Source: Actinomycetes bacterium
GTDB lineage: Bacteria > Actinomycetota > Acidimicrobiia > Spongiisociales > UBA5794
Assembly: GCA_023336815.1 (NCBI GenBank)
Contig: JAMBLJ010000054.1
Span: 1-52,849, forward strand
DNA: 52,849 nucleotides
Reading direction: 5' to 3'
Below, piece by piece: positions 21,942-43,464 of this stretch. The translations under genes and the position numbers were made by a program. Below the pieces are notes generated by a model. The model was not told where the DNA came from. It did not search any database and saw only the letters and a program-made list of their open reading frames with translations. Every line of letters starts with the position of its first letter. Position 1 is the first letter of the stretch.

Positions 21942-23165
21942 CTACTTCCTCACATTCACCGTGCGTTCGATGGCGTTGTAGATGTGTTCGGACATCCTTG
22001 CCTCGTCGGGATCGAGCAGGTTCGCCATCACCTTGAGCGTCCACTCCATCAACGACTGCGAGCGGAGCCCGACGGTGGTGAGTGAACGCATGACCATCGG
22101 GTTTCCGATGGCCTTGACGAACACACGAGCCACGCGGTGGTAGTCCCCATACGCGTCGTCCAGGGCTGTCACGTAATTTGCCAGTGCATCTTCGTTTCCC
22201 GTGGCCGCATCGGCGAGATGGGTCGCAGCCATTCTTCCCGTCTCATAGGCGTAGTCGATGCCCTCTCCGTTGAATGGATTCACGGCACCGGATGCATCAC
22301 CGACAAGCATCCAGTTGCGGCCGACCTTCGGTCCGACGGAGAGCGACATGGGAAGTTTGCCACCGATCGGTTTGGTGTGCGGTGTCACATCCGTGACCTT
22401 CCAGTGGTCAGGGAGAGAGTGGATGTAGGCATCGAGGATGTGCGATGTGTTGACATCCTTCCACCCTTTGAACGTGGAGACGAGCCCGGCTCCGATGTTG
22501 ATCTCACCATCACCGAGGGGAAATACCCAACCGTACCCTGGCATTGCGTTGCCTTCTTTGTCCCTGATATCGAGTTGGCTCTCAATGAACGGGTCCATTG
22601 AAAGCGGACTTGTGTAGTACGCGCGAACTGCGAGACCGTAGGGGTAATCCTTGCGCCGTGATGCGCCAACGCCGCGACCGAATCGTGAATTCGATCCGTC
22701 TGCGATGACGACGAAGTCGGGGTGAACAGTCCGTTCTTCGTCATCCCTGGAAAGTGTCACGCCAACCACTTTGTCGTCCTCGAGAATAGGCATTGCGGTT
22801 GTGCCTTGTTCCACAGTGGCACCCTCGGTCTCTGCTAGACCGGCGACGATCCCGTCGAGATCCGCCCTGCGCATCGTCGCTCCCCAATTGGGATAGATCG
22901 AATGTTCGGGCCATGGCATTTCGATCTTGAGATCTCCTGCATAGGCTCGGAGGCCGTCCACGCGGTGCAGATCGAGGCTGTCGAAGTCGAAGCCCATGTC
23001 GAGCAGCTGTTTGATAGCTCGGGGAGTCAGCCCGTCGCCGCACGCTTTCTCACGTGGGTAGGTCTTCTTCTCCACGAGGTGAACATCAAGGCCATTACGA
23101 GCAAGCCAGTATGCACATGAGGCACCGCCTGGTCCGCCACCGACGACGAGGATATTTGCTGCCAT
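21942..23165 (-). CDS. Geranylgeranyl / menaquinone reductase family flavoprotein
   Basis: This 407-residue FAD oxidoreductase starts with a dinucleotide site, NILVVGGGPGGASCAYWLAR, then KTYPREKACGDGLTPRA, the PxxKxCG motif of geranylgeranyl reductases. MLVGDASGAVNPFNGEGIDYA is the second FAD motif. Such enzymes saturate isoprenoid double bonds of lipids or of the menaquinone tail (MenJ). The position between respiratory genes favours menaquinone, whose reduced form would feed the quinol-using complexes here, but the substrate is inference. TACCCT lies 6 bases before the ATG, so it can be transcribed apart from the cytochrome gene 32 bases upstream. Confidence 0.82.
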   Translation of the reverse strand: MAANILVVGGGPGGASCAYWLARNGLDVHLVEKKTYPREKACGDGLTPRAIKQLLDMGFDFDSLDLHRVDGLRAYAGDLKIEMPWPEHSIYPNWGATMRRADLDGIVAGLAETEGATVEQGTTAMPILEDDKVVGVTLSRDDEERTVHPDFVVIADGSNSRFGRGVGASRRKDYPYGLAVRAYYTSPLSMDPFIESQLDIRDKEGNAMPGYGWVFPLGDGEINIGAGLVSTFKGWKDVNTSHILDAYIHSLPDHWKVTDVTPHTKPIGGKLPMSLSVGPKVGRNWMLVGDASGAVNPFNGEGIDYAYETGRMAATHLADAATGNEDALANYVTALDDAYGDYHRVARVFVKAIGNPMVMRSLTTVGLRSQSLMEWTLKVMANLLDPDEARMSEHIYNAIERTVNVRK

Positions 23166-23197: not shown

Positions 23198-24817
23198 TCA
23201 GCCTTCGTTCGAAGCTTCGACGAGGCCACAGTCGATCTCGGCGTCAACGAGGTCCTGACCACCGAACTGGACACGTTCATAGAGAGACACAGCGGCGAGT
23301 TGTTCCTCTGAGAGAGATGCCGCGAAACCAGGCATCAATCCGACGCCACCCACGGGTTTCTGGTTCTCTCCATAGGTCGGGTCTGGCCATCCGGCTGTTC
23401 CGATGCCTACCCATTCGATCTGTGTTGCGCATTGACCGGCGGGGAAGGTCTCGAGGACCGCTCCTGCCGTGAACGCTGGGCCTACACCACCTGTACCGTC
23501 AGCATTGTGACACGCAACGCACTGTGCGTAGATGGCACCGCCGGAGGCGAAATAGTCAGCGGTCGTCTCCCCGTACGGGCTCCCGTCACAGTTGACGGCC
23601 TCGCCGGTCGCAGGATCGACGAGAAGTTGTCCGCCCGATCCGCAGTCGGGTCCGTTCGGTGAGACGAGGATGTAACCAACGGCGAGCAGTGGGATGAGGA
23701 GGAACGCTGCGAGAAGCCACTTCGGATACCCGCCCTGTGCCGGTGCAGCCTCGTCGGCTTCATCGCCAGTCGGACCCTGAGCTCTATCCGTCGTGGGTTC
23801 GATCACTTCGACGTCATCCCCGGTGTTCGGGTCCGGTTCTTCATCTGACGGTCCAGACGTATCCTCTGTTGCTGGTTCTGGCGCAGATGGGGGTGCTGTC
23901 GAAACGGCTCCCGGATCCACTCCTGCCCACTCCGCAAGTACGGCTTCGACGGATTCACCCGTCTTCTTAGATCGTGCTTCTGCTGAGCGTTGGGCGAGTG
24001 AGGCTGGCATGCCTTTGACTTCCGCGACCTGTGCGAGCAATTCGTCCATGCTCATCGCTCCAACGGCAACAGCTGCAGCGGCCGCTACTGGAGCGGGTGC
24101 GACGGCATCTGGTTCGACTGGCGGTTCAGTGGCCGCTCCTGGGTCCACTCCTGCCCACTCCGCAAGTACGGCTTCGACGGATTCACCGGTCTTCTTGGAT
24201 CGTGCTTCTGCTGAGCGTTGGGCGAGTGAGGCTGGCATGCCTTTGACTTCCGCGACCTGTGTGAGCAGTTCGTCCATGCTCATCGCACCTACGGCGACGG
24301 CGGCAGCAGCCGCAGTGGCGACGGGGGCGGGTGTGGCCTCCTCCGGCTCGGCTGGTGGCTCGTCCTCCTTCACAACGTCTGGTTCCCCGGATGCAACGGG
24401 TGCTGGAGTCCTTGCTGACACGAGTTCATCGAGATCGATACCCGCCCAATCCGCGAGAACTGAGTCGAGGGTCTCTCCGGCATGGGTGGCTCGAGCCTGT
24501 GCTGACGAGAGGATGAGTTTTGGAGGCATGCGCTTTGCCTCGGATGCGAGTTGGACGAGCTCATCTGTGGTTACACCGGTCGGTACCGACGCAGTGGCGA
24601 GAGCGGGTGTGTCAGGTGTAACCGGTGGTTCGGGTTCAGCTACTGGAGCGGTTGTCACTTCAGGCTTGGACGCCGATGTGGACCCTTCGCCAAGCCATTC
24701 CTGGAGAACCTGTTCGATGGTCGAACCCGTCTTGTCGGCTCTGGCCTGTGCAGATCGCTCGACGAGGGACGCTGGCATCCCTCGCATCTCAGCGACCTGT
24801 TGGAGAAGTTCGTCCAT
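23198..24817 (-). CDS. Membrane-anchored cytochrome c with four helical modules
   Basis: This 539-residue protein has three parts. The N-terminal part holds four copies of a 44-residue helical module (1-44, 84-127, 181-224, 257-300). The modules share the core MPASLxxRSAxARxxKTG, then an E-xx-VLAEWAG end, and are joined by Pro/Ala/Glu-rich linkers. A single membrane helix follows (366-386). The C-terminal part is a class I-like cytochrome c with one CVACH site (433-437) and a likely Met ligand in GLMPGF (M495). With no signal peptide, the modules should face the cytoplasm and the heme the outside. Modules 3 and 4 are almost identical in DNA. It lies 4 bases after the CcoN-CcoO fusion gene. 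I know no named family for the module. Confidence 0.8.
   Translation of the reverse strand: MDELLQQVAEMRGMPASLVERSAQARADKTGSTIEQVLQEWLGEGSTSASKPEVTTAPVAEPEPPVTPDTPALATASVPTGVTTDELVQLASEAKRMPPKLILSSAQARATHAGETLDSVLADWAGIDLDELVSARTPAPVASGEPDVVKEDEPPAEPEEATPAPVATAAAAAVAVGAMSMDELLTQVAEVKGMPASLAQRSAEARSKKTGESVEAVLAEWAGVDPGAATEPPVEPDAVAPAPVAAAAAVAVGAMSMDELLAQVAEVKGMPASLAQRSAEARSKKTGESVEAVLAEWAGVDPGAVSTAPPSAPEPATEDTSGPSDEEPDPNTGDDVEVIEPTTDRAQGPTGDEADEAAPAQGGYPKWLLAAFLLIPLLAVGYILVSPNGPDCGSGGQLLVDPATGEAVNCDGSPYGETTADYFASGGAIYAQCVACHNADGTGGVGPAFTAGAVLETFPAGQCATQIEWVGIGTAGWPDPTYGENQKPVGGVGLMPGFAASLSEEQLAAVSLYERVQFGGQDLVDAEIDCGLVEASNEG
23918..24060. repeat. Direct DNA repeat, unit A (module 4)
   Basis: About 143 bases here are nearly identical (roughly five mismatches by eye) to 24146-24288. 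The two encode modules 4 and 3 of the cytochrome c protein and start 228 bases apart. This points to a recent internal duplication. Confidence 0.8.
24146..24288. repeat. Direct DNA repeat, unit B (module 3)
   Basis: This is the partner of 23918-24060. The near identity also makes this gene prone to changes in module number by recombination, and to assembly collapse. Confidence 0.8.
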
Positions 24818-24821
24818 TGCG

Positions 24822-26720
24822 CTACCTCAGCGTCTCGATGTAGGTGACAAGTGCGTCGATATCCGAATCCGATAGGTACGAGTACGACGGCATGGTCGAC
24901 CACGAACGTGCGGCCCTGGGATTGATCAGATGTGGCCCGATCGCATCGACGTTGAAACCCTCACGGGAAGCAAGATGCATCAGGTCCGGTCCGAGACGGT
25001 AGGCGCCGAGTAGCACCGGATTCTCATGGGCATAGTCGCCAGCGAGCGATACCGCGCCGAGACCAACGTCGCTCGCAACGGGTCGCACCTGTTGCGTATG
25101 ACACTCGGCGCAGCCCTCGGAAACGTAGAGGTCGCGACCGATCGATGCTGCAGAACCATCGGCGTACGTTCGCTCGGTGTCAGCCAGCAAGGTCGACTCT
25201 GCGTCCGTGCTGTCGACCATCGGAAGAATGGCCGTGAACATTGCGGCGAAGAGCCACACCGCAACGACACCTCTGGTCAATCGTTTCCACGTTGCATATC
25301 GTTGCTTGCCGGAGAACTCGAGGTCATAGGCGGCGTGTCCGTCCGGGACCGCAAGGTCTTCGTCGTTGCGGCTTCCCACGCGAACGAGGAAGATGATCTG
25401 GGCGACCGTGAAGACCGCAATCGATGCAGCCGTGACCCATAGAAATGGGTACACCGTGTCAGCGGTGACCTTCCAAGCCGGACCCCAGTTCGCGAAGTTC
25501 TGGCTTGTAGGACCAGCGGCCCAGGAAAATCCGACGGCGACTCCACCCATGAGGAGTGCTGCGACAGCACCAGTGAGCCCGGTGAGCGACCACGCGAAGT
25601 GGAAGCTCGACCCGGAGGATGACCCTCCGCTGAGCACTCGATGTCCTGCGAATATCGCAAAGGACACGCCACCCAGTACCACGAGCAACTGCAGCGCCCG
25701 TACCCAGGGGGAGAATTGCACGATGCTGCTCGTCGCTGGCCACGTCAGGAGCAGATTCACGGCAGTCGTGGCGACGAAAGCGAGACCGCCTACGGTCGCG
25801 TAGCGCAAGGATGCCTTGTCGCCGACACTCGCAATGCGACCCTTGAGGAGCAGTCCAAGGTCCGTGACGATCACGAGAGTCGGAACGATCGCTCCGATCG
25901 CAAAGGCAATACCGATACTTTCGAACCAGTTCGGTGCCGGTGAGAAGATCAAACGGGTCGCACTCATGAATGACCACACCAGGATCAGTGACCAGAAACC
26001 CAGGGCCGCCAGTGGGCCAGCTTCGGTTGGGTCGGACCCGCTGATGTGTCCGAATACAAAGTACAACAGTCCGACGGCCGCCGTGATCATGAACAGTGTG
26101 AGTCCTGCACTGCCGAACGCCCCAACAACAGCCCCCGATGTACCTGCTGGTGCGGGCAGGATCGCTGCAAGTGCGGTGAGTGTGAGCAGAATCGGTGCAG
26201 CTGTTAGGTACCAGCCAGCTGTACCAAGTCGATCACGGTTGGACCGTGCGGTCGCTGTGATCGACATCGTGGCGAGCAATGCTCCGATGGCAAGAAGCGC
26301 ACGTGACCATATCGGTGCCTCAAGACCGGTGATCCCGCTGTTGAGACCGAACAGGATGCCGGCGGCGCCGCCTGCGCTCGCGATAACAAGGGCGACGAGG
26401 GAGGCCAGAGCGAGGGCGCTCCTCTCAAGGGGGTTGTTCGTGATCTTTGAAAGGGCGAAATAGCTGACTCCGAGAAGCCCGATGACTGCCCAGCCATACG
26501 TGAGAAGTAGACGACTTGCAGGGGCGATTCGACCGTAGCTCGTAAAGGCGTACGTTGACGCAAGATCCGGAAGTGCGATCTGGAACAGGGCCAGTGACGA
26601 TCCGGCGAGACCGGTGACAAGGAGTATCGCAGCCACGACGAGATGTGTACGCGCTGTCCGTGTGCTTGTCTCTTCCACTTCGGCACTCTGTACGTCGTTG
26701 GGTGAAGTTTCAGCCGTCAC
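24822..26720 (-). CDS. Ligand-less CcoN-like domain fused to CcoO-type cytochrome c
   Basis: This 632-residue protein joins a multi-helix domain aligning with cbb3 oxidase subunit I (CcoN) to a C-terminal CcoO domain. The CcoO part is clear: GRDLYVSEGCAECHTQQVRP (CAECH 537-541), GDYAHENPVLLGAYRLGPDL and WSTMPSYSYLSD with the Met ligand (M610). In the CcoN part every metal-ligand position is replaced when aligned by eye: the low-spin heme His by Ser69 (in APASR), the CuB His by Gly203, the His-His pair by Thr255-Arg256 (before LIFSPAPNW), and the two late His by Leu343 and Leu345. It therefore should bind no heme b, b3 or CuB. The start is GTG, preceded by AGGAGG. A -10-like TAGAGT lies at 26780-26775. 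Confidence 0.8.
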   Translation of the reverse strand: MTAETSPNDVQSAEVEETSTRTARTHLVVAAILLVTGLAGSSLALFQIALPDLASTYAFTSYGRIAPASRLLLTYGWAVIGLLGVSYFALSKITNNPLERSALALASLVALVIASAGGAAGILFGLNSGITGLEAPIWSRALLAIGALLATMSITATARSNRDRLGTAGWYLTAAPILLTLTALAAILPAPAGTSGAVVGAFGSAGLTLFMITAAVGLLYFVFGHISGSDPTEAGPLAALGFWSLILVWSFMSATRLIFSPAPNWFESIGIAFAIGAIVPTLVIVTDLGLLLKGRIASVGDKASLRYATVGGLAFVATTAVNLLLTWPATSSIVQFSPWVRALQLLVVLGGVSFAIFAGHRVLSGGSSSGSSFHFAWSLTGLTGAVAALLMGGVAVGFSWAAGPTSQNFANWGPAWKVTADTVYPFLWVTAASIAVFTVAQIIFLVRVGSRNDEDLAVPDGHAAYDLEFSGKQRYATWKRLTRGVVAVWLFAAMFTAILPMVDSTDAESTLLADTERTYADGSAASIGRDLYVSEGCAECHTQQVRPVASDVGLGAVSLAGDYAHENPVLLGAYRLGPDLMHLASREGFNVDAIGPHLINPRAARSWSTMPSYSYLSDSDIDALVTYIETLR

Positions 26721-26938: not shown

Positions 26939-27523
26939 GTGAACGGACGTAGACAGATCATCGCGGGCGTCGCTTTGATCCTGATCGGCCTTGTTGTAAC
27001 CATTGGTGCATCGGTTGTAGTGCACATGGCGGAGGCCCCCGAATTCGACGACCTTGGCCGCGAGCTGTTCGCGGGTGTTCCCAGGGGATGGCAGGTCGCG
27101 ACGCTTGCTCAGATCGTCGCCCTCGGCGGTGTGATCATCTCGCTTGCCGGTGCTACATACGGGTTCTTGTGGCAACAACCTCTGACATGGGCGCGGGCAA
27201 TGCTCGGTGCGCTGCTTTTCGCTTCCCTGATGTTCGTTATCTTTGCGATTGTCCCGAATCAGTTCCTGACGCTGACACAGGCGACGCTGGAATGGACACC
27301 ACAGAAAACGTTCCTTGTGGTCCCTCCCATCGTGGCGTTGAACAACGAGATCTCGCTTTCCTATGCAGCGCTCAAGGACATGATCTCGGCCGGGTATGCG
27401 ACAACGATGCTGATCCTCATTCCGGTCATCATGTACAAGTGGCAGGAGCGTGCGAAAACTCAGGACGCCCCGAAACCAGATCCCGTATCTGACTACGGCA
27501 GACCCCTGCGCGTGGATCGCTGA
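26939..27523 (+). CDS. Four-helix membrane protein heading the bc operon
   Basis: This 194-residue protein has about four membrane helices (near 7-30, 55-80, 86-108 and 143-166) and a short polar tail. It has no cofactor motif. A gene in this position could be a small integral subunit or an assembly factor of the complex that follows. The start is GTG with GGGAAG upstream. The ferredoxin gene overlaps its stop by one base (TGATG), so the two are co-translated. I do not recognise a family and assign no function. Confidence 0.65.
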   Translation: MNGRRQIIAGVALILIGLVVTIGASVVVHMAEAPEFDDLGRELFAGVPRGWQVATLAQIVALGGVIISLAGATYGFLWQQPLTWARAMLGALLFASLMFVIFAIVPNQFLTLTQATLEWTPQKTFLVVPPIVALNNEISLSYAALKDMISAGYATTMLILIPVIMYKWQERAKTQDAPKPDPVSDYGRPLRVDR

Positions 27524-27966
27524 TGGCGAAGGAAGTCTGGCTCGAAACGCCACCGATGCGGGATGACTATCAACTCGCGCTCGTGGACACGGAGTACATG
27601 AACGCGGCTGTGAAACCCAAGCAGTTCATCCACATCAATGAATCCGAATGCATTCTGTGTGCCGGATGCGTCGACATCTGCCCCTGGAAATGCATTCAAC
27701 TTCTCTCGCCAGATATCGTCACCGAAGCGATTGGTGTTGACGACCCGAACGACAACGAGGAGAACGGCGCCGTGTTCGTCATCGACGACACCGAGTGCAC
27801 CAGATGCAAGTTGTGCGTCGATCGATGTCCCACCAACGTCATAACCATCGGTAAATTCGGTGGTTCATTGGTAGCCAGTTCTGATGCGTTCGACGCTGCA
27901 CCGTGGGAATACGATTCTGGCACAAGAGATACCAAGAGTGGCGTCGCGTATGGCGTGCGCTGGTAG
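27523..27966 (+). CDS. 2[4Fe-4S] ferredoxin-like protein
   Basis: This 147-residue soluble protein carries two 4Fe-4S binding sites: CILCAGCVDICPWKC (Cys43, 46, 49 and 53, with an extra Cys57) and CTRCKLCVDRCPTNV (Cys92, 95, 98 and 102). The cysteine of each cluster is followed by Pro as usual. A 25-residue acidic insert separates the clusters and is longer than in small ferredoxins. It has N- and C-terminal extensions of about 40 residues. It sits between a membrane protein gene and the cytochrome b gene, so it may dock on the cytoplasmic side of the b subunit. A ferredoxin inside a bc operon is unusual, and its electron partner is unknown. Confidence 0.85.
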   Translation: MAKEVWLETPPMRDDYQLALVDTEYMNAAVKPKQFIHINESECILCAGCVDICPWKCIQLLSPDIVTEAIGVDDPNDNEENGAVFVIDDTECTRCKLCVDRCPTNVITIGKFGGSLVASSDAFDAAPWEYDSGTRDTKSGVAYGVRW

Positions 27967-27981
27967 GAAGAGGAGAACGAG

Positions 27982-28758
27982 TTGGTAGACGGCAACGGCA
28001 GGACGAGCGTCAAGGACGCTGTCACCGGAATGGGAGACCATGTCCGGAACTCTCAGGTGTGGAACTCGATCTTCCGCCCTGGTTCGCCGATGCGTGCGGA
28101 TGGGGGAGACTCGCCGAGGAACCGTGCCTACGTTGTCATGAACAACGTTCTCTACCACCTGCATCCAGTCAAGGTAAAGCGACATGGCGTCCGCCTGTCC
28201 TACACGCTGTGTCTCGGAGGGCTGAGCTTCTTCCTCTTCATCCTTCTGACGGTCACAGGGATCTTCCTGATGTTCTACTACCGACCGACGTCACCCCAGG
28301 CGTACTTCGATCTTCAGGCTCTTGCAACAGATGTAGCGTTCGGGCAACTCGTTCGCAATATGCACAGGTGGGGCGCACACATCATGGTGCTGACTGTGTT
28401 CCTGCACATGGCTCGTGTGTTCTACCACGGTGCGTACAAGCCACCACGGGAATTCAACTGGGTTGTTGGCATCGTTCTGTTGCTGTTGACGCTTCTGCTG
28501 TCGTTCACCGGCTACCTACTCCCATGGGACCAACTCGCTCTTTGGGCTGTCACTGTTGGTTCGAATATGGCTGCGTATACCCCCGTATTCGGCAACCAGG
28601 TGACGTTCGCGCTCATCGGGGGTATACAGATCACCGCGGACACCCTTCTGCGCTGGTACGTGCTTCACGTGTTGTTCCTCCCGTTCATCATCACCATCTT
28701 TATGGCCGTCCATTTCTGGCGGGTCCGTAAAGATGGCGGCATCTCAGGTCCGCTGTAA
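27982..28758 (+). CDS. Cytochrome b, N-terminal half (b6-like)
   Basis: This 258-residue protein contains the four-helix, two-heme part of cytochrome b. The heme ligands are in [20 protein letters not shown] (two His, 14 residues apart) and [22 protein letters not shown] (second pair). [17 protein letters not shown] is the conserved Qo-side segment. It ends after helix 4, so the protein is split as in b6f rather than full-length as in the usual actinobacterial QcrB. The start is TTG with AGAGGAGA six bases upstream. About 60 polar residues precede the first helix. It acts in quinol oxidation with the subunit encoded next and the Rieske protein. Confidence 0.9.
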
Positions 28759-28767
28759 GGAGACACC

Positions 28768-29625
28768 GTGGCACAGCTTCCAGATCATCTCCTCAAACGG
28801 GCCGCCGAGGCCAGAGCGAAAGCAGAAGGCCGAACGGTCGACGACGTCATGGCTGAGATGAAGGGCGAACCGGCCGCAGCTTCGCCGTCGCCTGCAGCCG
28901 CCGTGACATCGGGTCCTGGCAGGGATCTCGATGCTGAGGCTGCAACGTACGGTGTTCCCCGACCGCTCCTCGAACGATCGATGTTCGCCCGTGCAAGAAT
29001 GGACGGCACGGCCGTACCCGCAATGGCCGGCGCACCTGCAGCCGCACCTGCAGCCACGGCATCCGCAGCAGCGGCTCCCGCGGCCGCTGCGCCGACAGGT
29101 CCGCCACCGGGTGTGAGAACACAACGTCTCCTCACTGTGGTCAAAGCAGGGGCGATTCAGGGCACCACCAAGGAACCCGCAGACAAGGTCAACGTGTGGC
29201 CGCACCTGCTGGCAATCGAATTCGTGGCGTTGTTGGCTATGTCCGCTTTCCTCTTCTTGCTGTCAGCGCTGATGGATGCACCGCTTCTCGAGTTCGCAAA
29301 CTTCAACGAGCAGCCGAACCCATCCAAGGCGCCGTGGTACTTCCTGGGACTCCAGGAGCTGCTCGCGTACTTCGATCCTCAGGTCGCCGGTGTGATCATT
29401 CCTGGGTTCGGTATTGCCGCACTAGCATTTATCCCGTACATCGATCGAAACCCGTCGGTGCGTCCTTCGAATCGCAAACTTGCGATCTCGTTGTTCACGG
29501 TGTTCTTTATGGGTGCAGCTGTGTTGACGATCTTCGGCTCGTTCTTTCGCGGACCGGGCTTTAACTTCGTATTTCCCTGGACCGATGGGATATTCTTTGA
29601 CGACCTGCTAGCGATTCTCGAATGA
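28768..29625 (+). CDS. Cytochrome b C-terminal half (subunit IV-like) with helical modules
   Basis: This 285-residue protein ends in the three-helix Qo-site half of cytochrome b: KAPWYFLGLQELLAYFDP is the PEWY-type loop, here APWY, followed by helices near 206-225, 238-258 and the end. In front of it are about 115 cytoplasmic residues not found in known subunit IV. They hold LPDHLLKRAAEARAKAEGRT (4-23, continuing to Gly33), matching the module of the cytochrome c at 23198-24817, and a weaker copy at about 59-88 (GVPRPLLERSMFARARMDG). An Ala/Pro linker follows. Start GTG with AAGGAG upstream. The shared module suggests that the two proteins touch or share a partner. Confidence 0.82.
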   Translation: MAQLPDHLLKRAAEARAKAEGRTVDDVMAEMKGEPAAASPSPAAAVTSGPGRDLDAEAATYGVPRPLLERSMFARARMDGTAVPAMAGAPAAAPAATASAAAAPAAAAPTGPPPGVRTQRLLTVVKAGAIQGTTKEPADKVNVWPHLLAIEFVALLAMSAFLFLLSALMDAPLLEFANFNEQPNPSKAPWYFLGLQELLAYFDPQVAGVIIPGFGIAALAFIPYIDRNPSVRPSNRKLAISLFTVFFMGAAVLTIFGSFFRGPGFNFVFPWTDGIFFDDLLAILE

Positions 29626-29632
29626 GGCACCC

Positions 29633-30493
29633 ATGAGCGCCACTGCAATCTTCGTTCTCATCATCCTCGCAGCTGCTGCCATGGTCGTTGTAGCGATCGT
29701 TGCTGTTGCCAGCAGTCGGTCGGACACCGATGGTGCCGCGACGGCAGGCGAGCTGGATCGCAAGGCTGCCAGGGCCGACAAGGCGCGACGCAAGGCCAAG
29801 ATCGAAGTCGCCGCCGCATCCGGCGGTCCCGGCCGAGAGACGACCGTGATGTTGGTCGATCCCGCTGCGGAGTACGAGACCGCAGTACCGCTCGAGGAGA
29901 TCTCCGCCGTGGAATACGGTGTGACAAGACGCAAGTTCTTCAATCGGGCGATAGGTGCCGTTTTCGGTCTTTTCATGTTGCAGTTCGCCCTTGCCGGATT
30001 GGCGTTTTTCTGGCCGAAGCTCAAAGGCGGTTTCGGGACACCGATCAAAGCTGGCGATGTGAGCACCCTCAAGTCAGAGGTGCTCGTTGCTGGAAAGATC
30101 GTGCCCAAGTTCGTTCCGGCTGCCCAAGCCTGGATCGTTCCCTTCGACATGAGCAACCTGGAGGGTTCGTCCTATGAGGAGGTGCCCTTCGTTGTTGTTG
30201 GTGGCGAATCAGACGGCATCGGTCTTATGGCGCTGTGGCAGCGATGTGTCCATCTTGGATGCCGTGTGCCGTCCTGCGAGTCGTCACAGGGGTTCGAATG
30301 CCCGTGCCATGGTTCGAAGTACAACGGCCATGGCGAATATGCGGCTGGCCCCGCACCGCGGAACCTGGATCGGTTCGGCGTATCGATCGACAGCGCGGGT
30401 GAGCTCGTGATCGACACGGGAACGGTTGTGCAGACAGCACGTGCGAAGGTGTACACAGTTGCGTATCCACAGGGTCCGTTCTGTGTTGGTTGA
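29633..30493 (+). CDS. Rieske [2Fe-2S] protein
   Basis: This 286-residue protein carries the Rieske cluster motifs CVHLGC and CPCHGSKYNGHGEY, so it takes electrons from quinol at the Qo site. An N-terminal membrane helix (5-27) is followed by a charged cytoplasmic stretch of about 75 residues and a second helix preceded by RRKFFNRA, which could serve as a Tat signal for the folded cluster domain. Two helices instead of the three of typical actinobacterial QcrA is a difference. The C-terminal DTGTVVQTARAKVYT region is the usual end of the domain. It lies 7 bases after the subunit-IV gene and 24 before the diheme cytochrome gene. Confidence 0.9.
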   Translation: MSATAIFVLIILAAAAMVVVAIVAVASSRSDTDGAATAGELDRKAARADKARRKAKIEVAAASGGPGRETTVMLVDPAAEYETAVPLEEISAVEYGVTRRKFFNRAIGAVFGLFMLQFALAGLAFFWPKLKGGFGTPIKAGDVSTLKSEVLVAGKIVPKFVPAAQAWIVPFDMSNLEGSSYEEVPFVVVGGESDGIGLMALWQRCVHLGCRVPSCESSQGFECPCHGSKYNGHGEYAAGPAPRNLDRFGVSIDSAGELVIDTGTVVQTARAKVYTVAYPQGPFCVG

Positions 30494-30517
30494 TGGACTG
30501 AAAAAGGTGATGGGTCA

Positions 30518-32149
30518 GTGATTTCAACAGGTATACATCTAGCGGCACTCGTGCTCGCAACCGGCGAGGACGCCGGAGTGGTGTCGAGCGGTTCAGGGCT
30601 TGGTGTTGGTGCTCTGGCCCTCATGGCCGTGGTCGTTCTTCTCCTCGGTTGGATGGCGTATCTTTACATCAACTCCCGTCGCAGCGCCGCGGCCGCTCAG
30701 GATCCAGCTCCGCCGAACCTGTCTCCCCCTGCCTCGGACGATGAACTCGAGAACCGCAAACTGACACGAGTCCTGCGTGCGGCTCTCTTCGGCAGCGCAT
30801 TGCTTGCTATCGCTCTCCCCTGGTACGCCATCAACGAACCGGATCGTCAAGACACCGCGGCCGAGTCGATCCTCGAAGAAGATGTCGAGGCTGGTGCCCA
30901 CTGGTTCAGTGTCGACGGGTTCGCATGTGCCCAGTGTCACGGTCCTACCGCGGGTGGTGGAGCCGCCCCCTTCACGGAAGCTCGGAGCGGCGTTGATGTC
31001 TCCTGGGCGGTTCCGTCTCTGGACGATGTGCTGTTCCGATACTCCGAAGAAGAAGTGAAGTTCTGGATCGTCTTCGGTCGCGATGGAACCCCGATGCCGG
31101 CCAATGGCCTTGAAGGGGGAGGGGCGATGACGGTCCAGGAGGTCGATCAGACCATCGAGTATCTGAAGTCCATCCAACTCAGTCAGGTTGATGCCTTTGC
31201 TAAGTCAGAGTCGACCGTCGATCTTGCCCTGAAAGCGATCGAAGGCGGAGAAGCTAGGGCACGATCCCTCATCAACCTTCAGCAAGCGGATATCGATGCG
31301 GTGAACGCCGCACCTGACAAGCTCGCGGTGACCGGTTCCTTCGCAGATGATGTCAAGGATCTCCTTCAGGCGCCGGGAACGTGTACAGCTGCATCAGCGA
31401 AGCTCGTGGACACAACGTGCGAAGATCCCGGCGAAGACAGTGATCGGGATGGCCTGACAGATGACGCTGAGAAGGCACTGACAGAAATCGCATCGGTTTC
31501 CATGGAGACTCTCGTTGTTCCCGTCGCATCACAGAACGACGAAGGGATCACCGAATACTCGTTCGAAGCCAATGAGCAGTACGCGTTGAGGTACGACCCC
31601 TTCGTAGCATTCACGAACATCGACCCGGATTCGAGGAACCCCGCACCGGATCTCGACATGGCGGCGGTACTGCTCGAGCACCTCGAGACCGATCTCCTGC
31701 TCGTCGGCGTGACGGCCGATCGTCAGGATCAGTTCCTCGAGGGGTTGAATTCCGGTATGGCCTTTCTCGAGCAGTCTCTCGCTGACCAGCTCTGGAATAT
31801 CGACTACGCGACCGTCGCCACCAACATGGATGTTTCGGAGGCCGATGCACAACGCGGTGTTGGACTCTTCAACTCATATTGTGCGCGGTGTCACACCGGT
31901 GGCTATTCCGCAGGAGCTCCATTCGAACAAGGGGCTGGCACCGGTGCGTGGGGACCGTCACTTCTCGATGGGCGGGCCGAAGGCCAGTTTCCTACCATCG
32001 ATGACCAGGTTGCATTCGTCATGACAGGATCTGACAACGGCGAACGGTACGGCGTCAACGGTCTCGGTACGGGCCGGATGCCCGGATTCGGCCAGGTGCT
32101 GTCCGTCTCAGACATCGAGCTCATCGTGAAGTACGAAAGGACACTCTGA
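30518..32149 (+). CDS. Membrane-anchored diheme cytochrome c with calcium-loop motif
   Basis: This 543-residue protein has two membrane helices (about 28-50 and 85-104) and two widely separated c-type heme sites: CAQCH (137-141) and CARCH (455-459), with candidate Met ligands in GTPMPANG and GRMPGFG. Between the heme domains lies a helical region with DSDRDGLTDDAE (307-318), an EF-hand or thrombospondin-type calcium loop, near two cysteines (289 and 301). It takes the place of QcrC in this operon but does not resemble actinobacterial QcrC, whose two heme sites are close together. The likely role is carrying electrons from Rieske to an oxidase. Start GTG. The next gene overlaps by one base. 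Confidence 0.8.
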   Translation: MISTGIHLAALVLATGEDAGVVSSGSGLGVGALALMAVVVLLLGWMAYLYINSRRSAAAAQDPAPPNLSPPASDDELENRKLTRVLRAALFGSALLAIALPWYAINEPDRQDTAAESILEEDVEAGAHWFSVDGFACAQCHGPTAGGGAAPFTEARSGVDVSWAVPSLDDVLFRYSEEEVKFWIVFGRDGTPMPANGLEGGGAMTVQEVDQTIEYLKSIQLSQVDAFAKSESTVDLALKAIEGGEARARSLINLQQADIDAVNAAPDKLAVTGSFADDVKDLLQAPGTCTAASAKLVDTTCEDPGEDSDRDGLTDDAEKALTEIASVSMETLVVPVASQNDEGITEYSFEANEQYALRYDPFVAFTNIDPDSRNPAPDLDMAAVLLEHLETDLLLVGVTADRQDQFLEGLNSGMAFLEQSLADQLWNIDYATVATNMDVSEADAQRGVGLFNSYCARCHTGGYSAGAPFEQGAGTGAWGPSLLDGRAEGQFPTIDDQVAFVMTGSDNGERYGVNGLGTGRMPGFGQVLSVSDIELIVKYERTL

Positions 32150-32670
32150 TGGGGTACCTCCGCACACGCACCCGACGTCTGGGTTCCCAGGAATCCGGAA
32201 TCTCGAAGCTCGAGACTCTTGGTCTGATCGCGTTCATCCTCGCCCTCCTCGCAATGGTCCCCTTTATTCGCAACTGGGTGATCAACGCTATCGGTGTTGT
32301 CTTTGGTCAGGTCGACGAAGATACGGGCGAGATCAACGACTTCTCGACTGCAATGCGTGGTTTCGCCATCGTGGGCGGTGCCGTGATCGTGTTCATCGGC
32401 TCGGGTGCTTTGCTGTTGTGGACGAACCTTGGAAAACGTCTTGCTTTCCTGATCACAGGCGCTGCGACGTTCGGTTGGCTCACGATCAACGGAGTTCTCT
32501 TCGTTGTGTACGCACCCCGAGGAATTCGTCCCACGAACCTCGAGGGACTCAACTCGATTCAGGTGCGCCTTCCCGCTCTCGCCATGACCCTGGGATCGTT
32601 CGTCCTGTTCTTGATGTTCACCCTCGCCCTCGCACGCTACGAATCGGACATGAGCGCCGAAGAGGCGTAG
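32149..32670 (+). CDS. Four-helix membrane protein ending the bc operon
   Basis: This 173-residue protein has about four membrane helices (near 22-45, 62-85, 96-117 and 141-164) and no cofactor motif. Its ATG overlaps the stop of the diheme cytochrome gene (TGATG), which ties it to the complex. It could be a small structural subunit. It differs clearly from the operon's first membrane protein at 26939. No family is recognised. It is followed by repeat-rich DNA. Confidence 0.65.
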   Translation: MGYLRTRTRRLGSQESGISKLETLGLIAFILALLAMVPFIRNWVINAIGVVFGQVDEDTGEINDFSTAMRGFAIVGGAVIVFIGSGALLLWTNLGKRLAFLITGAATFGWLTINGVLFVVYAPRGIRPTNLEGLNSIQVRLPALAMTLGSFVLFLMFTLALARYESDMSAEEA

Positions 32671-32966: not shown

Positions 32967-33587
32967 TCAACCTGAGTTGCGATGGAAGGCGAGGATGCCG
33001 AGTTCCGTCGACAGATCAACCCTTCGAATGAATACCTCGTCGGATGTCTGAAGTATCGTCGGTGCGAGATTCAAGATGGATGTGACCCCCGCCTCCGCGA
33101 GTCTGTTCGCGACGGACTGTGCTGCGCTTGCGGGTGTGGCGATGATGCCGATCTCTATGCCCCGCTCCTTGACGATATCGGCAAGTCGATTGGCTGATTC
33201 GATCTTCAGACCATCTACCGGGTCTCCGATCTTGTCGTTGTCAATGTCGACCACTGCAACGACGTCGAACCCCCACGCATCGAAACCTTTGTAGTTCGTC
33301 AGGGCGGAACCAAGGTTCCCGGCACCAACGATCACGACCGGGTACGTACGTGTCAGGCCAAGCACCTTGCGGATCTGGCTTCGTAGCTCGCGAATGTCAT
33401 ACCCGACACCACGTGTTCCATAGCTACCGAGATACGAAAAGTCCTTGCGGACCTGTGCGCTGTTGACCCCGGCGGCGATGGCGAGTTGCTCTGACGAACA
33501 CTTGGCCTCACTGTCGACCATGTCTGTGAGACAGTGCAAGTACCTGGGTAGGCGGGCCACCGTGGCTTGGGGAATCGTACCCTTCAT
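32967..33587 (-). CDS. rex: Redox-sensing transcriptional repressor Rex
   Basis: This 206-residue repressor senses the NADH/NAD+ ratio. Its N-terminal winged helix (ATVARLPRYLHCL, then SAQVRKDFSYLGSYGTRGVGY) binds DNA, and the Rossmann domain has VVIVGAGNLGSAL for NADH. SILNLAPTIL and the C-terminal swapped helix are present. The ATG at 33587 is chosen over a longer frame because TAGGCT lies 7 bases upstream and the protein begins with the normal Rex N-terminus. It is divergent from nuoA, with 112 bases between starts. A clear Rex operator (TTGTGAA...TTCACAA) is not seen there. Regulation of the neighbouring respiratory operons is likely by context. Confidence 0.92.
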   Translation of the reverse strand: MKGTIPQATVARLPRYLHCLTDMVDSEAKCSSEQLAIAAGVNSAQVRKDFSYLGSYGTRGVGYDIRELRSQIRKVLGLTRTYPVVIVGAGNLGSALTNYKGFDAWGFDVVAVVDIDNDKIGDPVDGLKIESANRLADIVKERGIEIGIIATPASAAQSVANRLAEAGVTSILNLAPTILQTSDEVFIRRVDLSTELGILAFHRNSG

Positions 33588-33594
33588 CGCAATA

Positions 33595-33600
33595 AGCCTA
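33595..33600 (-). promoter_or_regulatory. -10 hexamer TAGGCT, leaderless promoter of rex
   Basis: TAGGCT on the minus strand lies 7 bases before the ATG at 33587. It supports the short start. Confidence 0.6.
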
Positions 33601-33686
33601 CGAAGCGCGGTGTGTTGACGTGTATCGGGAAGCCCTTCGTTCCTGACTTTGGTACTGCGTGATTTCTGATGGGTCCAGAGGGTCGG

Positions 33687-33692
33687 TAACCT
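33687..33692 (+). promoter_or_regulatory. -10 hexamer TAACCT, leaderless promoter of the nuo operon
   Basis: TAACCT lies 7 bases before the ATG of nuoA at 33700. No further promoter-like site is evident in the tightly packed genes that follow, so it may drive the whole 14-gene operon. Confidence 0.6.
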
Positions 33693-33699
33693 CACAACC

Positions 33700-34122
33700 A
33701 TGGAGCTTGTCGACTATCTGCCTATTGCTCTTCTCACGTTGCTCGGCATTGCGTTTGCTGGAGTTTCACTCGTTCTCGCCCGAGTGCTTGCACCTTCGAA
33801 CCCGACACCTGAGAAGCTGGCTCCGTACGAGTGCGGTATCGTTCCGCTTCAGGAACCAGTGCAGCGTTTCCCCGTCAAGTTCTACCTCGTTGCGATGTTG
33901 TTCGTCATTTTCGATGTTGAGATCATCTTCCTTTTCCTATGGGCTGTTCGCATGGATCAGTTCGGCTGGGCGGGGATCGCGACGGTGGTGGCGTTCATGC
34001 TCATGCTCATCGAAACGCTTGCATACGCCTGGAAACGTGGCGCGTTGGACTGGAACGTCTCACATCGGACGCGTACACGTCGGGTTGTTGCGCCTGAGGC
34101 CACGATCGAGAAGGCCGCCTGA
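33700..34122 (+). CDS. nuoA: NADH-quinone oxidoreductase subunit A
   Basis: This 140-residue membrane subunit of complex I has three helices. The loop after helix 1 carries [12 protein letters not shown], with the conserved ECG, and [24 protein letters not shown] is the signature of helix 2. The C-terminal 30 residues form a basic and then acidic tail longer than usual. It lacks a ribosome-binding site but has TAACCT 7 bases before the ATG. nuoB overlaps the stop by one base. Confidence 0.95.
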
Positions 34123-34607
34123 TGGCTGGCGTGGCCTCTGATCCCGGATTCCTCATGTCCACGATGGAAAAAGGTGTCAACTGGGCCAGGACACGCTCCA
34201 TGTGGCCTGCGACGTTCGGTCTGGCGTGTTGTGCCATTGAGATGATGGGGACTGGCGCTGCGCACAACGACCTCTCGAGATTCGGCATGGAGGTGTTTCG
34301 CGCCTCACCCCGCCAGGCCGATCTCATGATCGTTGCTGGCCGCGTGTCCCAGAAGATGGCACCCGTTCTGCGGCAGGTGTACGACCAGATGGCGGAACCG
34401 AAGTGGGTCATCTCGATGGGCGCCTGTGCTTCCTCTGGTGGGATGTTCAACAACTACGCCCTCGTTCAGGGTGTCGATGAGGTAGTACCTGTCGATATCT
34501 ATGTTCCCGGATGCCCGCCAGGACCACAGTCGCTGATGCACGGCATTCTCACCCTCCACGAGAAGATCATGTCCGGGGAGATCCAGCGATCGACCGGTCT
34601 GGTATGA
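34122..34607 (+). CDS. nuoB: NADH-quinone oxidoreductase subunit B
   Basis: This 161-residue peripheral subunit holds the terminal N2 [4Fe-4S] cluster that passes electrons to quinone. Cluster cysteines are in [10 protein letters not shown] (adjacent Cys pair), MGACASSGG and [19 protein letters not shown]. The length is normal. The ATG overlaps nuoA's stop as TGATG. Confidence 0.96.
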
Positions 34608-34608
34608 C

Positions 34609-35169
34609 ATGACAGACGAGATCATGCCTCCCGAAGAATCAGCTGCAGAGGAGCGCGACTCGGTTCGGCGCGCTCTACCCGAAGTTGCGAGCATCGCGAG
34701 CCTGTTCGCCGCGTTCGAGGACGCAACCTTCGAGGTACGGTCGTATGCGTCGAGCGATGTGAGATATCACACGATCGATGTGCCCGTCGACGACTGGGTA
34801 GCGTTCGCGCGATCGGCAAAGGATGTTGGATTCGATACGTTCGTGGATCTTGCTGCGGTGGATCACTTCGCTGACGCTCCACGTTTCGAGGTAGCTCTGA
34901 ACCTGATCTCGATGGTCGAGAAGGAACGCATCATCATCTCCACTCGCGTCGCGTACGACGTTGCTTCGGTTCCAACCGTGACCGACGTGTTCGTTGGTGC
35001 GAACTTCTACGAACGCGAGGCGTACGACCTCTTTGGAATCGATTTTCCGGGACATCCGGACCTGACTCGAATCCTGATGCCTGACGACTGGGAGGGTCAC
35101 CCGCTTCGCAAGGATTACGACATTGGTGCCGTGCCGGTGGAGTTCAAGGCCGGGAGTCTCGATCTGTGA
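34609..35169 (+). CDS. nuoC: NADH-quinone oxidoreductase subunit C
   Basis: This 186-residue peripheral-arm subunit is recognised by the 30-kDa subunit signature ERAYDLFGI-like region [20 protein letters not shown] and by [16 protein letters not shown]. Its first 40 residues are variable and acidic. It is separate from NuoD, not fused as in E. coli. The ATG lies one base after nuoB's stop, and nuoD overlaps as GTGA. Confidence 0.95.
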
Positions 35170-36593
35170 CGGACACACCAGACACAACAGCCCCCGTGGA
35201 GGACCCGGCACCTATCGGTCCGGATGCATCGGTTGCCTTTAGCGTGGAAGACGAACGGCGAAAGCAGCACGAGATCTGGGTTTCGGGCACAGAGGAACGG
35301 ATGCCGTTCGCCAGTGCTACCAATGAAGGTGCTCAGGAGCTCTTGCCTCGCGACCAGGATCCGGCTCTTGCACTCCAAACCGGCACCGCTGTCGAGGATG
35401 ATTTCATCTCGTTTGTTCCGGCGATCGACGAGGAACGGCAGATCATCAACATGGGCCCACAACACCCATCGACCCACGGCGTGCTGCGGCTTCAAGTGGA
35501 GCTCGAAGGCGAGACCGTGCGCAGGGTCAAACCCATCATCGGGTATCTGCACACTGGCATGGAGAAGACCGCAGAGACGCTGACCTACGCCCAGGGTTCG
35601 ACGAACGTCACACGTATGGACTACCTCTCACCGTTCCACAACGAACTTGCGTACTCGCTGACCGTTGAACAGCTCCTCGGTATCGATGTTCCTGCACGCG
35701 CTGATGCCATCAGGATCCTCATGACCGAGCTGAACAGGGTGTCGAGCCATCTGCTGTCAACGGCAACGATGGGTATGGACATCGGTGCTCTTTCGATGAT
35801 GATCTACGGGTGGCGTGAACGCGAACTCTGTCTCGACTTCTTCGAGAAGACAACCGGTCTCCGCATGAACCACAACTACATCCGGCCAGGGGGAGTAGCA
35901 GCCGAACTTCCTGACGGTTGGGAGGACGACATCGTCAGCATCATCGAGGGTGTCAACGCCGGTGTCGACGAGTACGAAGAGTTGCTCAACGAAAATCCGA
36001 TCTTTCTCGACCGCACGATTGGTGTTGGGGTGCTGACTCCTGAAGAAGTCAAACAGTACGGCATCACAGGACCGGTGGCTCGTGCATCTGGCATCGACTG
36101 GGATCTGCGCAAGGCGATGCCCTACAGCGGGATCGAAAAGTACGAGTTCGATGTCCCGACGGGTCTTCACGGTGACGTGAATGATCGATATCACCTTCGG
36201 ATCAAGGAGATCCGCGAGTCACTCAAGATCGTCCACCAGGTGCTCGAATCGATCCCTGCCGGTGACTATCGAAATCCGGACCCAAAGGTCACGCCACCCC
36301 CTCGCAAGCGCATCGATGAATCGATGGAGGCGCTGATCCACCACTTCAAGCTCTTCACATCAGGTATCGAGGTCCCACCGGGTACGGCGTACCAGTCCGT
36401 CGAGGGACCACGCGGCGAGATCGGTTGCTACCTCGTATCCAAAGGTGGAACCAAGCCGTGGCGAATGCACTGGAGGGCCCCCTCCTTTGCCGTTGTGCAG
36501 TCGTTACCTGCGATGATGTCTGACTCGCTTATCGCTGACCTGATCTCGGCGCTTGCCTCGACGGATCCTGTCCTTGGGGATGTGGACCGATGA
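35166..36593 (+). CDS. nuoD: NADH-quinone oxidoreductase subunit D
   Basis: This 475-residue subunit contributes to the quinone-binding site next to NuoB. The core begins at [20 protein letters not shown] (from about residue 94) and includes [26 protein letters not shown] and the C-terminal DPVLGDVDR. The roughly 93 residues before the core are acidic and not part of the usual subunit, so this N-terminal extension is some 60-80 residues longer than normal. No earlier break or frameshift explains it, and GTG overlap with nuoC (GTGA) supports the start. The Qo-like His and Tyr region of NuoD is intact. Confidence 0.95.
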
Positions 36594-37219
36594 GTTCCCC
36601 GATATCTGCATGGTCGCATGCCAGCCAGGAAAGGGTGCAGACGATCCTTGACTCGTACCCCGAGCCTCGTTCGGCGATCATGCCCCTCCTCTATATTGCG
36701 AGCCTCGAACATGATCGTGTTTCCCCAGAGGCGATGCGGCAAGTCGCTGAATTGACCGGTGTGACCCCGGCACAGGTTGCCTCGGTCGCATCCTTCTACA
36801 CGATGTTCAAACGCGACGGTGTCGGCGAGTATCTCGTGTCTGTATGCACATCGATCTCTTGCTTCTTGCGGGGAGCCGACGATGTCCTGGAAGTTGTGGA
36901 AGATGCAACCGGTGCCAGGCGTGGTGAGACATCGTCCGACGGCACATTCACAGTTGAACACGTCGAATGTATCGGCTCGTGTGGTGGAGCGCCGGCGGTA
37001 CAGGTGAACTACGAACTCATCGAGGGTGTATCCACAGACAACGGCCGAAAGCTGGTTGCGTGGCTGAAGGATACCAAACCACAGGTCGTTCTGGCTGACG
37101 AGATGCAGCAGCTGTTTGGCGGTAGTCGTTCTTTCGACTGGGGCGGTCCCGAACCGGAAGGTGCTATTGCGCCTGTTCCTGCGTTCGGTCCGTACGGATC
37201 CTCAGGGGAGGGACGTTGA
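36590..37219 (+). CDS. nuoE: NADH-quinone oxidoreductase subunit E
   Basis: This 209-residue thioredoxin-fold subunit carries the [2Fe-2S] cluster N1a. Its ligands are in CTSISCFLRGADDVLE and VECIGSCGGAPAVQVN. SYPEPRSAIMPLLYIASLEH and ASVASFYTMFKR are typical N-terminal segments. About 40 extra residues at the C-terminus (Gly/Pro-rich) are not part of the core. The ATG overlaps nuoD's stop as ATGA. Confidence 0.94.
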   Translation: MSSPISAWSHASQERVQTILDSYPEPRSAIMPLLYIASLEHDRVSPEAMRQVAELTGVTPAQVASVASFYTMFKRDGVGEYLVSVCTSISCFLRGADDVLEVVEDATGARRGETSSDGTFTVEHVECIGSCGGAPAVQVNYELIEGVSTDNGRKLVAWLKDTKPQVVLADEMQQLFGGSRSFDWGGPEPEGAIAPVPAFGPYGSSGEGR

Positions 37220-38508
37220 CAGACTTGATCCTGACCGCACGTATGACCGCGCACCCTGCTGATAGCCATATGATCGATCGTTTCGTTGCTACCGGTGGGT
37301 ACAGCGCTCTCCGGAAGGCTCTCACCGAGTTGACGCCAGAAGAAGTCAAGGATGAGGTCAAGGCATCGAATATGAGAGGTAGAGGTGGGGCAGGGTTCCC
37401 AACGGGTGTCAAGTGGGGGTTCCTCGCCGCTTCAGAACCGCGGTATCTGGTCGTCAACGGTGACGAATCTGAACCGGGTACGTTCAACGATCGTCAGCTC
37501 ATGGAGCGTGACCCTCATCAGCTCGTTGAGGGCATAGCCATCTCAAGCTACGCACTCGGGATAGGCCACGCGTTCGTGTACATCCGTGGTGAGTACCCGC
37601 GATCGGCACGGCGTGTGCAACGAGCTATCGAGGAGGCCTACGCGGCCGGTTACCTTGGAGACGGAATCCTCGGCACCGACTTTTCCCTCGACGTGACCGT
37701 CCATCTCGGTGGTGGTGCATACATCTGTGGCGAGGAAACAGCACTGCTCAACAGTCTCGAGGGGCGACGAGGTGAACCGAGGCTCAAACCGCCGTTCCCC
37801 GCTGTCGAGGGTCTGTATGCGAAACCCACGATCGTCAACAACGTGGAGTCCATCTCGAACGTTCCGTGGATCGTCAACAACTCCGGAACGTCCTATGCCG
37901 CCATCGGTCCTGAGCGCTCCGCCGGAACCAAGATGTTGAGTATCTCCGGCCATATAAACAAGCCTGGCAACCACGAGATCATCATGGGAATGACCTGGCG
38001 AGATATGATCTACGACCTTGGCGGAGGCATCCCTGACGACAGGGCGCTCAAGACCTGGATTCCGGGAGGAGCATCCGCTCCCTGGTTCGTCCCCGAGGAA
38101 CATCTCGACACGATCCTGTCGATCGATGATGTTGCTGCCAACGGTTCGATGATCGGTGCTGGTGCCGTTGTCGTGATGGATGAAACGACGAATGTCGTTG
38201 CAGCAGCGCATCGAATCGTTCGCTTCTTCGCACACGAGTCGTGTGGACAGTGCACACCATGCCGTGAAGGGACTCGTTGGCTTGAAGACGTGCTGAAGAG
38301 GATTCTCGACGGTCGCGGACGCCCCGAAGATATCGACCTGCTCCTCGACATCTCGGACAATATTTCCCCAGGTCTCTCCTGGCCGCCGGCGATGACAACG
38401 ATCTGCCCGCTCGGACCGTCAGCGGTTTCTCCTGTGACCTCGATTACACGGTGGTTCCTCCCCGAGATCGAGGCGATGATCGCCGGAGGTGGTGATTCCG
38501 ATGGCTGA
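37216..38508 (+). CDS. nuoF: NADH-quinone oxidoreductase subunit F
   Basis: This 430-residue subunit holds the NADH site, FMN and cluster N3. Features are MRGRGGAGFPTGVKW (NADH loop), GDESEPGTFNDRQLM (FMN site), GAYICGEETALLNSLEGRRGEPR, and SCGQCTPCREGTRW with the fourth Cys in TICPLGPSAVSP. The annotated start is TTG, overlapping nuoE as TTGA. An ATG nine codons later is the alternative. Complete length. Confidence 0.95.
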   Translation: MTDLILTARMTAHPADSHMIDRFVATGGYSALRKALTELTPEEVKDEVKASNMRGRGGAGFPTGVKWGFLAASEPRYLVVNGDESEPGTFNDRQLMERDPHQLVEGIAISSYALGIGHAFVYIRGEYPRSARRVQRAIEEAYAAGYLGDGILGTDFSLDVTVHLGGGAYICGEETALLNSLEGRRGEPRLKPPFPAVEGLYAKPTIVNNVESISNVPWIVNNSGTSYAAIGPERSAGTKMLSISGHINKPGNHEIIMGMTWRDMIYDLGGGIPDDRALKTWIPGGASAPWFVPEEHLDTILSIDDVAANGSMIGAGAVVVMDETTNVVAAAHRIVRFFAHESCGQCTPCREGTRWLEDVLKRILDGRGRPEDIDLLLDISDNISPGLSWPPAMTTICPLGPSAVSPVTSITRWFLPEIEAMIAGGGDSDG

Positions 38509-41961: not shown

Positions 41962-41971
41962 GGAGGCATCG

Positions 41972-42637
41972 ATGAGCTGGTTCGCAGACCTTCTCGGTCC
42001 ATTCAGGGGCTTTGCCGTGACTATGCGTCAGGTGGGAAAGCCACGGCTGACGATCAAGTACCCCGCACAGAAACGGGTCAAACCGGAGCGTTTTCATGGG
42101 CGACACGTTCTCAACCGGTACCCCGACGGCATGGAGAAGTGCATTGGATGTGAATTGTGTGCGGGTGTGTGCCCTGCGAACTGCATCTATGTGCGTGGCG
42201 CGGATAACCCACCGGAGGAGCCTGTCAGCCCAGGCGAACGATTCGGTTTCGTGTACGAGATCAACATGCTGCGGTGCATCTTCTGTGCGATGTGTGTCGA
42301 AGCTTGTCCCACACAGGCGATCACGATGACCCATCTGTTCGAGATGTCAGTGACCGAACGTGCTGACGGCATCTACACGAAAGATGAACTTCTTGTTGAG
42401 CCCGATGGGACGCCGAACCATCCGCAGCCACCATCGGAACTTATCGACCTCGACGAACTCACGGCCGGCGACGGGTGGATGCGAGCCACATCACCAGCGG
42501 GTCATGCCGCATATGAAGGCGTCGTAGCTTGGACGCCCTCTGCGAGAACCGGAGACCTCCCGGCTGAACGAGGTCAGATGAGCGATCCGCAGCTGGATGC
42601 CGGTGTCTCCGAAGAGAAGGAAGCCGACGATGGGTGA
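41972..42637 (+). CDS. nuoI: NADH-quinone oxidoreductase subunit I
   Basis: This 221-residue subunit carries two [4Fe-4S] clusters (N6a and N6b): CIGCELCAGVCPANCIYV and CIFCAMCVEACPTQAITM. The start is the ATG at 41972, preceded by AGGAGG, rather than the longer frame into nuoH. The C-terminal 60-70 residues, ending in an acidic EEKEADDG tail, are longer than in E. coli NuoI. nuoJ starts 8 bases before its stop. Confidence 0.95.
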   Translation: MSWFADLLGPFRGFAVTMRQVGKPRLTIKYPAQKRVKPERFHGRHVLNRYPDGMEKCIGCELCAGVCPANCIYVRGADNPPEEPVSPGERFGFVYEINMLRCIFCAMCVEACPTQAITMTHLFEMSVTERADGIYTKDELLVEPDGTPNHPQPPSELIDLDELTAGDGWMRATSPAGHAAYEGVVAWTPSARTGDLPAERGQMSDPQLDAGVSEEKEADDG

Positions 42638-43462: not shown

Positions 43463-43464
43463 CG

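Follow-up and report, generated by a model that had tools for sequence, protein, structure and literature searches.

The window considered here (52,849 nucleotides, positions 1 to 52,849 of contig JAMBLJ010000054.1 in assembly GCA_023336815.1, from an actinomycete of the class Acidimicrobiia, order Spongiisociales, family UBA5794) carries on its minus strand a gene that fuses homologues of two cbb3 oxidase subunits, CcoN and CcoO. It is accompanied by a cytochrome c gene 4 bp downstream and by a divergent operon (26939-32670) that faces away from it. The features of this region are:

23198..24817, minus strand: membrane-anchored monoheme cytochrome c (Cytochrom_C match; TM segment 362-390, CVACH at 433)
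23918..24049, minus strand: tag repeat copy 4 (repeat HMM)
24146..24277, minus strand: tag repeat copy 3 (repeat HMM)
24437..24568, minus strand: tag repeat copy 2 (repeat HMM)
24686..24817, minus strand: tag repeat copy 1, a three-helix mini-domain (HMM; AlphaFold2 pLDDT 93.5)
24822..26720, minus strand: ligand-less CcoN-CcoO fusion, 632 aa (Pfam COX1 and FixO, PDB profile alignment, ligand table)
24825..25151, minus strand: CcoO-type heme-c domain, aa 524-632 (CAECH 537-541, axial Met610; FixO match)
25482..26654, minus strand: CcoN-like multi-TM domain without heme or CuB ligands, aa 23-413 core (COX1 match, ligand-column residues)
26939..27523, plus strand: 4-TM membrane protein of no known family, first gene of the divergent operon, co-occurring with the fusion
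27523..27966, plus strand: 2x[4Fe-4S] ferredoxin-like subunit (Pfam Fer4; conserved position)
27982..28758, plus strand: cytochrome b6-type subunit (PF00033, E=7.6e-48)
28768..29625, plus strand: subunit IV, PetD-like (PF00032, E=4.1e-9), with an N-terminal tag repeat at 28768-28869
29633..30493, plus strand: Rieske iron-sulfur subunit (PF00355, E=3e-9)
30518..32149, plus strand: diheme cytochrome c subunit (CXXCH at 137 and 455; PF13442, PF00034)
32149..32670, plus strand: small 4-TM protein, often conserved as the last gene of the operon

The fusion gene begins with a GTG at 26720, which is preceded by an AGGAGG box and opens a protein start (MTAE) conserved in the relatives; the coordinates, strand and length assigned to it in an earlier sequence-only reading are correct. 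Pfam recovered COX1 over residues 23-413 (E=3.5e-16) and FixO, the CcoO family, over residues 524-624 (E=2.4e-21), and a family profile built from 19 relatives matched residues 4-465 of P. stutzeri CcoN (3mk7_A) with E=8.7e-40, so that membership of the fusion in this fold family is secure by sequence. The closest curated NCBI model is that of the bifunctional cbb3 subunit I/II, with a score far under the cut-off of the model, and an AlphaFold2 model of the full-length fusion from a five-sequence input had a mean pLDDT of 43.6. The CcoO part combines the FixO profile match with a TM anchor (481-505), the CXXCH motif at 537 and the axial Met610; with C537, C540, H541 and M610 all retained, the earlier observation that CAECH and the Met ligand are intact is borne out.

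In the CcoN part the profile alignment places Ser69 and Leu345 at the low-spin heme b ligands of the P. stutzeri protein (H60 and H347), Leu343 at the heme b3 ligand (H345), and Ala205, Thr255 and Arg256 at the CuB ligands (H207, H257 and H258). The active-site tyrosine Y251 is replaced by a tryptophan (W249), and the position of E323 holds a residue other than glutamate. The sequence-only reading had proposed the same residues by eye for Ser69, Thr255-Arg256, Leu343 and Leu345, but had put the first CuB histidine at Gly203 rather than Ala205, a correction that leaves the conclusion that all ligands are lost unaltered; its pairing of LIFSPAPNW with LHYTALPDW likewise agrees with the alignment. 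It had also asked whether the loss is common to homologues, and this is the case: 57 of 61 homologues have no histidine at any of the six ligand columns and the remaining four have one. In the same alignment all six ligand histidines are found in each of eight true CcoN rows, which stem from P. stutzeri and from five genomes of the window's phylum, two of these genomes appearing twice. As a single alignment returns six of six in the controls and none in 57/61 relatives, the ligand-less result exceeds chance. We infer from these replacements that the CcoN domain binds no heme b.

The COX1 homology would in principle allow an oxidase or NO reductase with shifted or unusual ligands, a reading to which the lone ligand-column histidine in 4/61 relatives, and three histidines in a verrucomicrobial relative (L150, see below), lend some colour. 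Frequent histidine columns in the CcoN domain are limited to His374 of helix XI and two minority columns, none of which is a ligand column, and a histidine within two residues of columns 257, 258, 345 or 347 occurs in just 1/61 sequences each. Furthermore, a true COX1 lies elsewhere in every genome checked. We therefore regard retention of such a catalytic activity as very improbable. Somewhat less improbable, if still unlikely, is that the CcoN barrel has taken on new non-heme chemistry, such as menaquinone binding or proton movement, in the manner of NrfD-type subunits. Non-ligand residues R64, W243, W265, G393 and W400 are kept, D287 is invariant in the nearer set of relatives and His374 is present in many, and alternative complex III already includes cofactor-free (NrfD-type) membrane subunits. 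Against such chemistry, the best-kept positions (G, P, W and F) are mostly common to true CcoN and structural in appearance, and the glutamate of the E323 position is absent.

Relatives of the fusion were found in 39 of the 50 genomes of the family, and matches in 109/130 genomes of the order, in some families of which the CcoN-like protein and CcoO are encoded by two genes. The class holds more relatives, including some in genomes of about 1.0-1.1 Mb, and others occur in further classes of the phylum. In the CcoN domain dN/dS amounts to about 0.05-0.17 over 14 pairs, in several of which dS is close to saturation, and the fused pairs tested have a lower dN here than in the C-terminal part. A ratio this far below 1 means that the fusion gene is not decaying. 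One might still view the domain as a decaying cbb3 remnant that has lost its ligands and is dragged along through fusion to a useful CcoO, but it is under purifying selection and changes less than the part that would be dragging it. Moreover, the ligand-less CcoN-like protein (pseudo-CcoN) persists as a separate gene in the families that we designate f2, f3, f5, f7 and f8, in the genomes of 1.0-1.1 Mb and in Verrucomicrobiales, all of which makes the remnant explanation hardly credible. The sequence-only reading held that the protein survived although its chemistry was lost, and this view is well supported by the shared loss, the purifying selection and the wide conservation.

The heme-c site of the CcoO part is kept with its axial methionine in 36/37 fused homologues. 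Among unfused CcoO proteins the methionine is replaced by histidine in 10 cases and by Gln, Val or Gly in a few (loci with replacements: L055, L057, L058, L059, L068-L071, L075 and L079). With so variable a ligand the heme potential must differ between members, and the route of the electrons perhaps differs too, which counts against the relay proposed below; a change from methionine to histidine would be expected to lower the potential and could reflect a different role there.

The divergent operon, with genes for b6, subunit IV, Rieske and cytochrome c together, qualifies as encoding a cytochrome b6f/bc-type complex III. Linkage of the pseudo-CcoN to such genes is general: at least one recognizable complex III subunit is encoded in all 30 large loci of the class that were compared (20/20 from the order, 10/10 from the wider class). 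When strong matches alone are counted, the fusion and the 4-TM first gene of the operon occur together in 93 of 394 class genomes, each occurs singly in 3, and neither in 295; G138 and G143 have a pseudo-CcoN and no strong match to the 4-TM gene. In class members without a pseudo-CcoN a related complex III operon stands opposite a cytochrome c gene alone (L116, L117), so that the module looks inserted into a complex III locus that already existed. G083, G142 and G143, the three relatives tested, each have a single cytochrome b of this kind, and it lies at this locus. The genome of the window has two further PF00033 cytochrome b genes, G000:C284:5588-6115 and G000:C134:23453-24025. As the ligand histidines are lost and the gene is yet kept beside complex III across many lineages, its product is probably a docking and wiring part and not an oxidase.

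An additional connection is provided by a repeat of about 44 residues, four copies of which a repeat HMM detects in the cytochrome c, N-terminal to its TM segment. Over about 95 loci, duplicates included in the counts and Verrucomicrobiales outside the search, this tag was recovered solely in 70 ORFs of the cytochrome c family, in 29 of the PetD family and at the N-terminus of unfused CcoO, where 12 hits fall in 11 distinct loci (L054-L059, L068-L070, L075 and L079). All five copies in the window's genome fall in this locus, four in the cytochrome c and one in the PetD-like protein. Four of nine whole genomes encode an extra carrier, a multi-TM protein, and in the Actinomarina-like genome G142 a tagged membrane protein (L108, 6568-7683) directly follows the caa3 genes COX2-COX1-COX3-CtaG. 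The repeat is confidently predicted to form three helices, and no significant relative of it was found in the PDB, by sequence or by fold, or in Pfam. Most economically, the tag can be read as a cytoplasmic assembly domain that the subunits of a single assembly have in common. Where CcoO is fused, the CcoN domain occupies the place that the tag has in unfused CcoO.

A link to complex IV is seen in G143. Here the pseudo-CcoN gene (L073:9090-11219) lies directly upstream of COX2-COX1-COX3-CtaG, on a strand that codes for the pseudo-CcoN, COX2 with a cytochrome c domain, COX1, COX3, CtaG, CcoO and cytochrome c, and that lies opposite the complex III genes. This pseudo-CcoN ends in a C-terminal cupredoxin domain; with the CcoO heme c of the window's protein, two kinds of carrier are thus attached to one ligand-less barrel. 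Conservation in the complex III locus, together with the position of the G143 copy among COX, CtaG, ResB and cytochrome c assembly genes, might also suggest that the protein acts in the assembly or biogenesis of complex III or of the aa3/caa3 oxidase and is no stoichiometric subunit. A heme-c site that keeps its axial methionine in nearly all fused forms, and a tag common to cytochrome c, PetD and unfused CcoO, suit a wiring subunit better, and we give the assembly-factor explanation a small share of the probability.

Based on these observations we propose, as the fairly probable explanation, that the fusion combines a redox-inert CcoN scaffold with a heme-c relay, and that it is a subunit or tight partner of complex III that serves as a wire in a III-IV assembly. 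Its ancestor would have been a cbb3-type CcoN-CcoO pair, the CcoN part of which lost the heme b, heme b3 and CuB sites and became an inert membrane scaffold. Gene linkage, co-occurrence and the shared tag domains suggest that the fusion is physically assembled, as a subunit or tightly bound partner, with the b6/Rieske/diheme-c complex III encoded on the opposite strand. The CcoN barrel may dock to this complex and keep the heme c of CcoO (CAECH/Met610) in place at the outer face. Electrons would then pass from the diheme cytochrome c through the CcoO heme c and the tagged monoheme cytochrome c to the CuA site of an aa3/caa3 oxidase, with the CcoO heme and the tagged cytochrome c forming a fixed wire within the assembly. 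The suggestion of the sequence-only reading that the domain is a scaffold or docking subunit fits all of this evidence and can be sharpened to a module tied to complex III, the grounds for which are gene order, co-occurrence, shared tags and domain swaps.

A comparable arrangement was recovered in Verrucomicrobiales, where genes for a ligand-poor CcoN, CcoO and cytochrome c follow the Act genes of alternative complex III in 11/11 loci (L005, L006 and nine others). Alternative complex III is unrelated to b6f. The separate fused CcoNO genes of Verrucomicrobiales have all ligands present. At the same place in such an operon, L155:8583-10082 encodes a CcoN with all six ligands and L150:8760-10211 one with three of the six histidines, which are apparently the ancestral and an intermediate state. 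The intact verrucomicrobial CcoN sequences are sister to the ligand-poor ones, and their inclusion in the tree (from a rapid search, with SH-aLRT as the sole support measure and an unknown root) makes two independent losses necessary; a tree with a single loss was dropped after this addition, as well-supported branches force two changes. This raises a broader proposal, to which we attach about even chances. Complex III assemblies would include, as a structural and wiring subunit, a heme-copper-oxidase fold devoid of cofactors, which was recruited through loss of all metal ligands at least twice: alongside a b6/Rieske complex in the phylum of the window and alongside alternative complex III in Verrucomicrobiota. 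The former assembly would be built with the help of a new three-helix tag on several subunits.

The fusion resembles cbb3 oxidases, including the bifunctional CcoNO (NCBIfam PRK14485), in the alignment along the length of CcoN, the CcoO heme c and the order and fusion of CcoN and CcoO. It differs from them in lacking the six histidines and the active-site tyrosine and in its location in a complex III locus, and no CcoP-type diheme partner of the fusion was identified. The neighbouring operon is like those of b6f/bc complexes in coding for b6, PetD-like, Rieske and diheme-c subunits, to which the locus adds the ferredoxin-like subunit, the 4-TM protein, the tag domains and the pseudo-CcoNO; we know of no CcoN-fold subunit in canonical b6f/bc complexes. 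Nor, to our knowledge, is there a CcoN-like gene among the described Act subunits, whereas the verrucomicrobial operon ends in ligand-poor CcoN, CcoO and cytochrome c. In the actinobacterial bc1-aa3 supercomplex (QcrCAB and CtaCDEF), complexes III and IV are wired via a membrane-bound diheme cytochrome c and no soluble carrier. That supercomplex is not known to have a CcoN-like subunit, and the link proposed for the fusion would instead run through the heme of CcoO and an additional, monoheme cytochrome c. Core proteins 1 and 2 of mitochondrial complex III, former enzymes kept as structural parts, provide an analogy in the way they work; they have a peptidase fold and no homology to the CcoN domain.

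The heme-copper oxidase superfamily is defined by the ligands of its catalytic subunit. The pseudo-CcoN is a homologue of the cbb3 catalytic subunit that lacks these defining ligands, and for this reason the fusion should not be filed as an oxidase. A broad, selected-for clade without ligands indicates that the oxidase fold can be retained for a use other than redox catalysis, and intact relatives in the same operon place allow a comparison with this clade. Annotation by homology would label the pseudo-CcoN "cbb3 oxidase subunit I", crediting organisms with a high-affinity oxidase that they may lack; if the Actinomarina-like identification is right, this misannotation reaches abundant streamlined marine organisms. 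The pseudo-CcoN further suggests an assembly of complexes III and IV that is open to test and that includes a tag domain of no known family. We found no earlier description of a ligand-less CcoN in the open literature, a weak negative that covers neither subscription journals nor preprints, and neither cbb3 nor CcoN is mentioned in the main text of a survey of UBA5794 genomes. A candidate precedent (PMC8756737) was set aside, as it concerns eNOR, in which the active site is kept.

Several further observations pertain to the surroundings of the cluster. A Rex-type redox regulator (32967-33701; Put_DNA-bind_N and CoA_binding) adjoins the cluster in many loci. A Rex operator search of the window gave two matches, which equals chance expectation, and no sigma-70 promoter was found in the divergent intergenic region. 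Directly past the complex III operon lie complex I (nuo)-like ORFs (33700-49925), recognized from order and context and, for the NuoI-like ferredoxin ORF, from a match. The ferredoxin-like gene 27523-27966 is conserved inside the complex III operon, and a low-potential branch is a possible role for its product. On the other side, 21942-23165 encodes a geranylgeranyl-reductase-type FAD protein that is conserved beside the cluster and perhaps reduces menaquinone tails.
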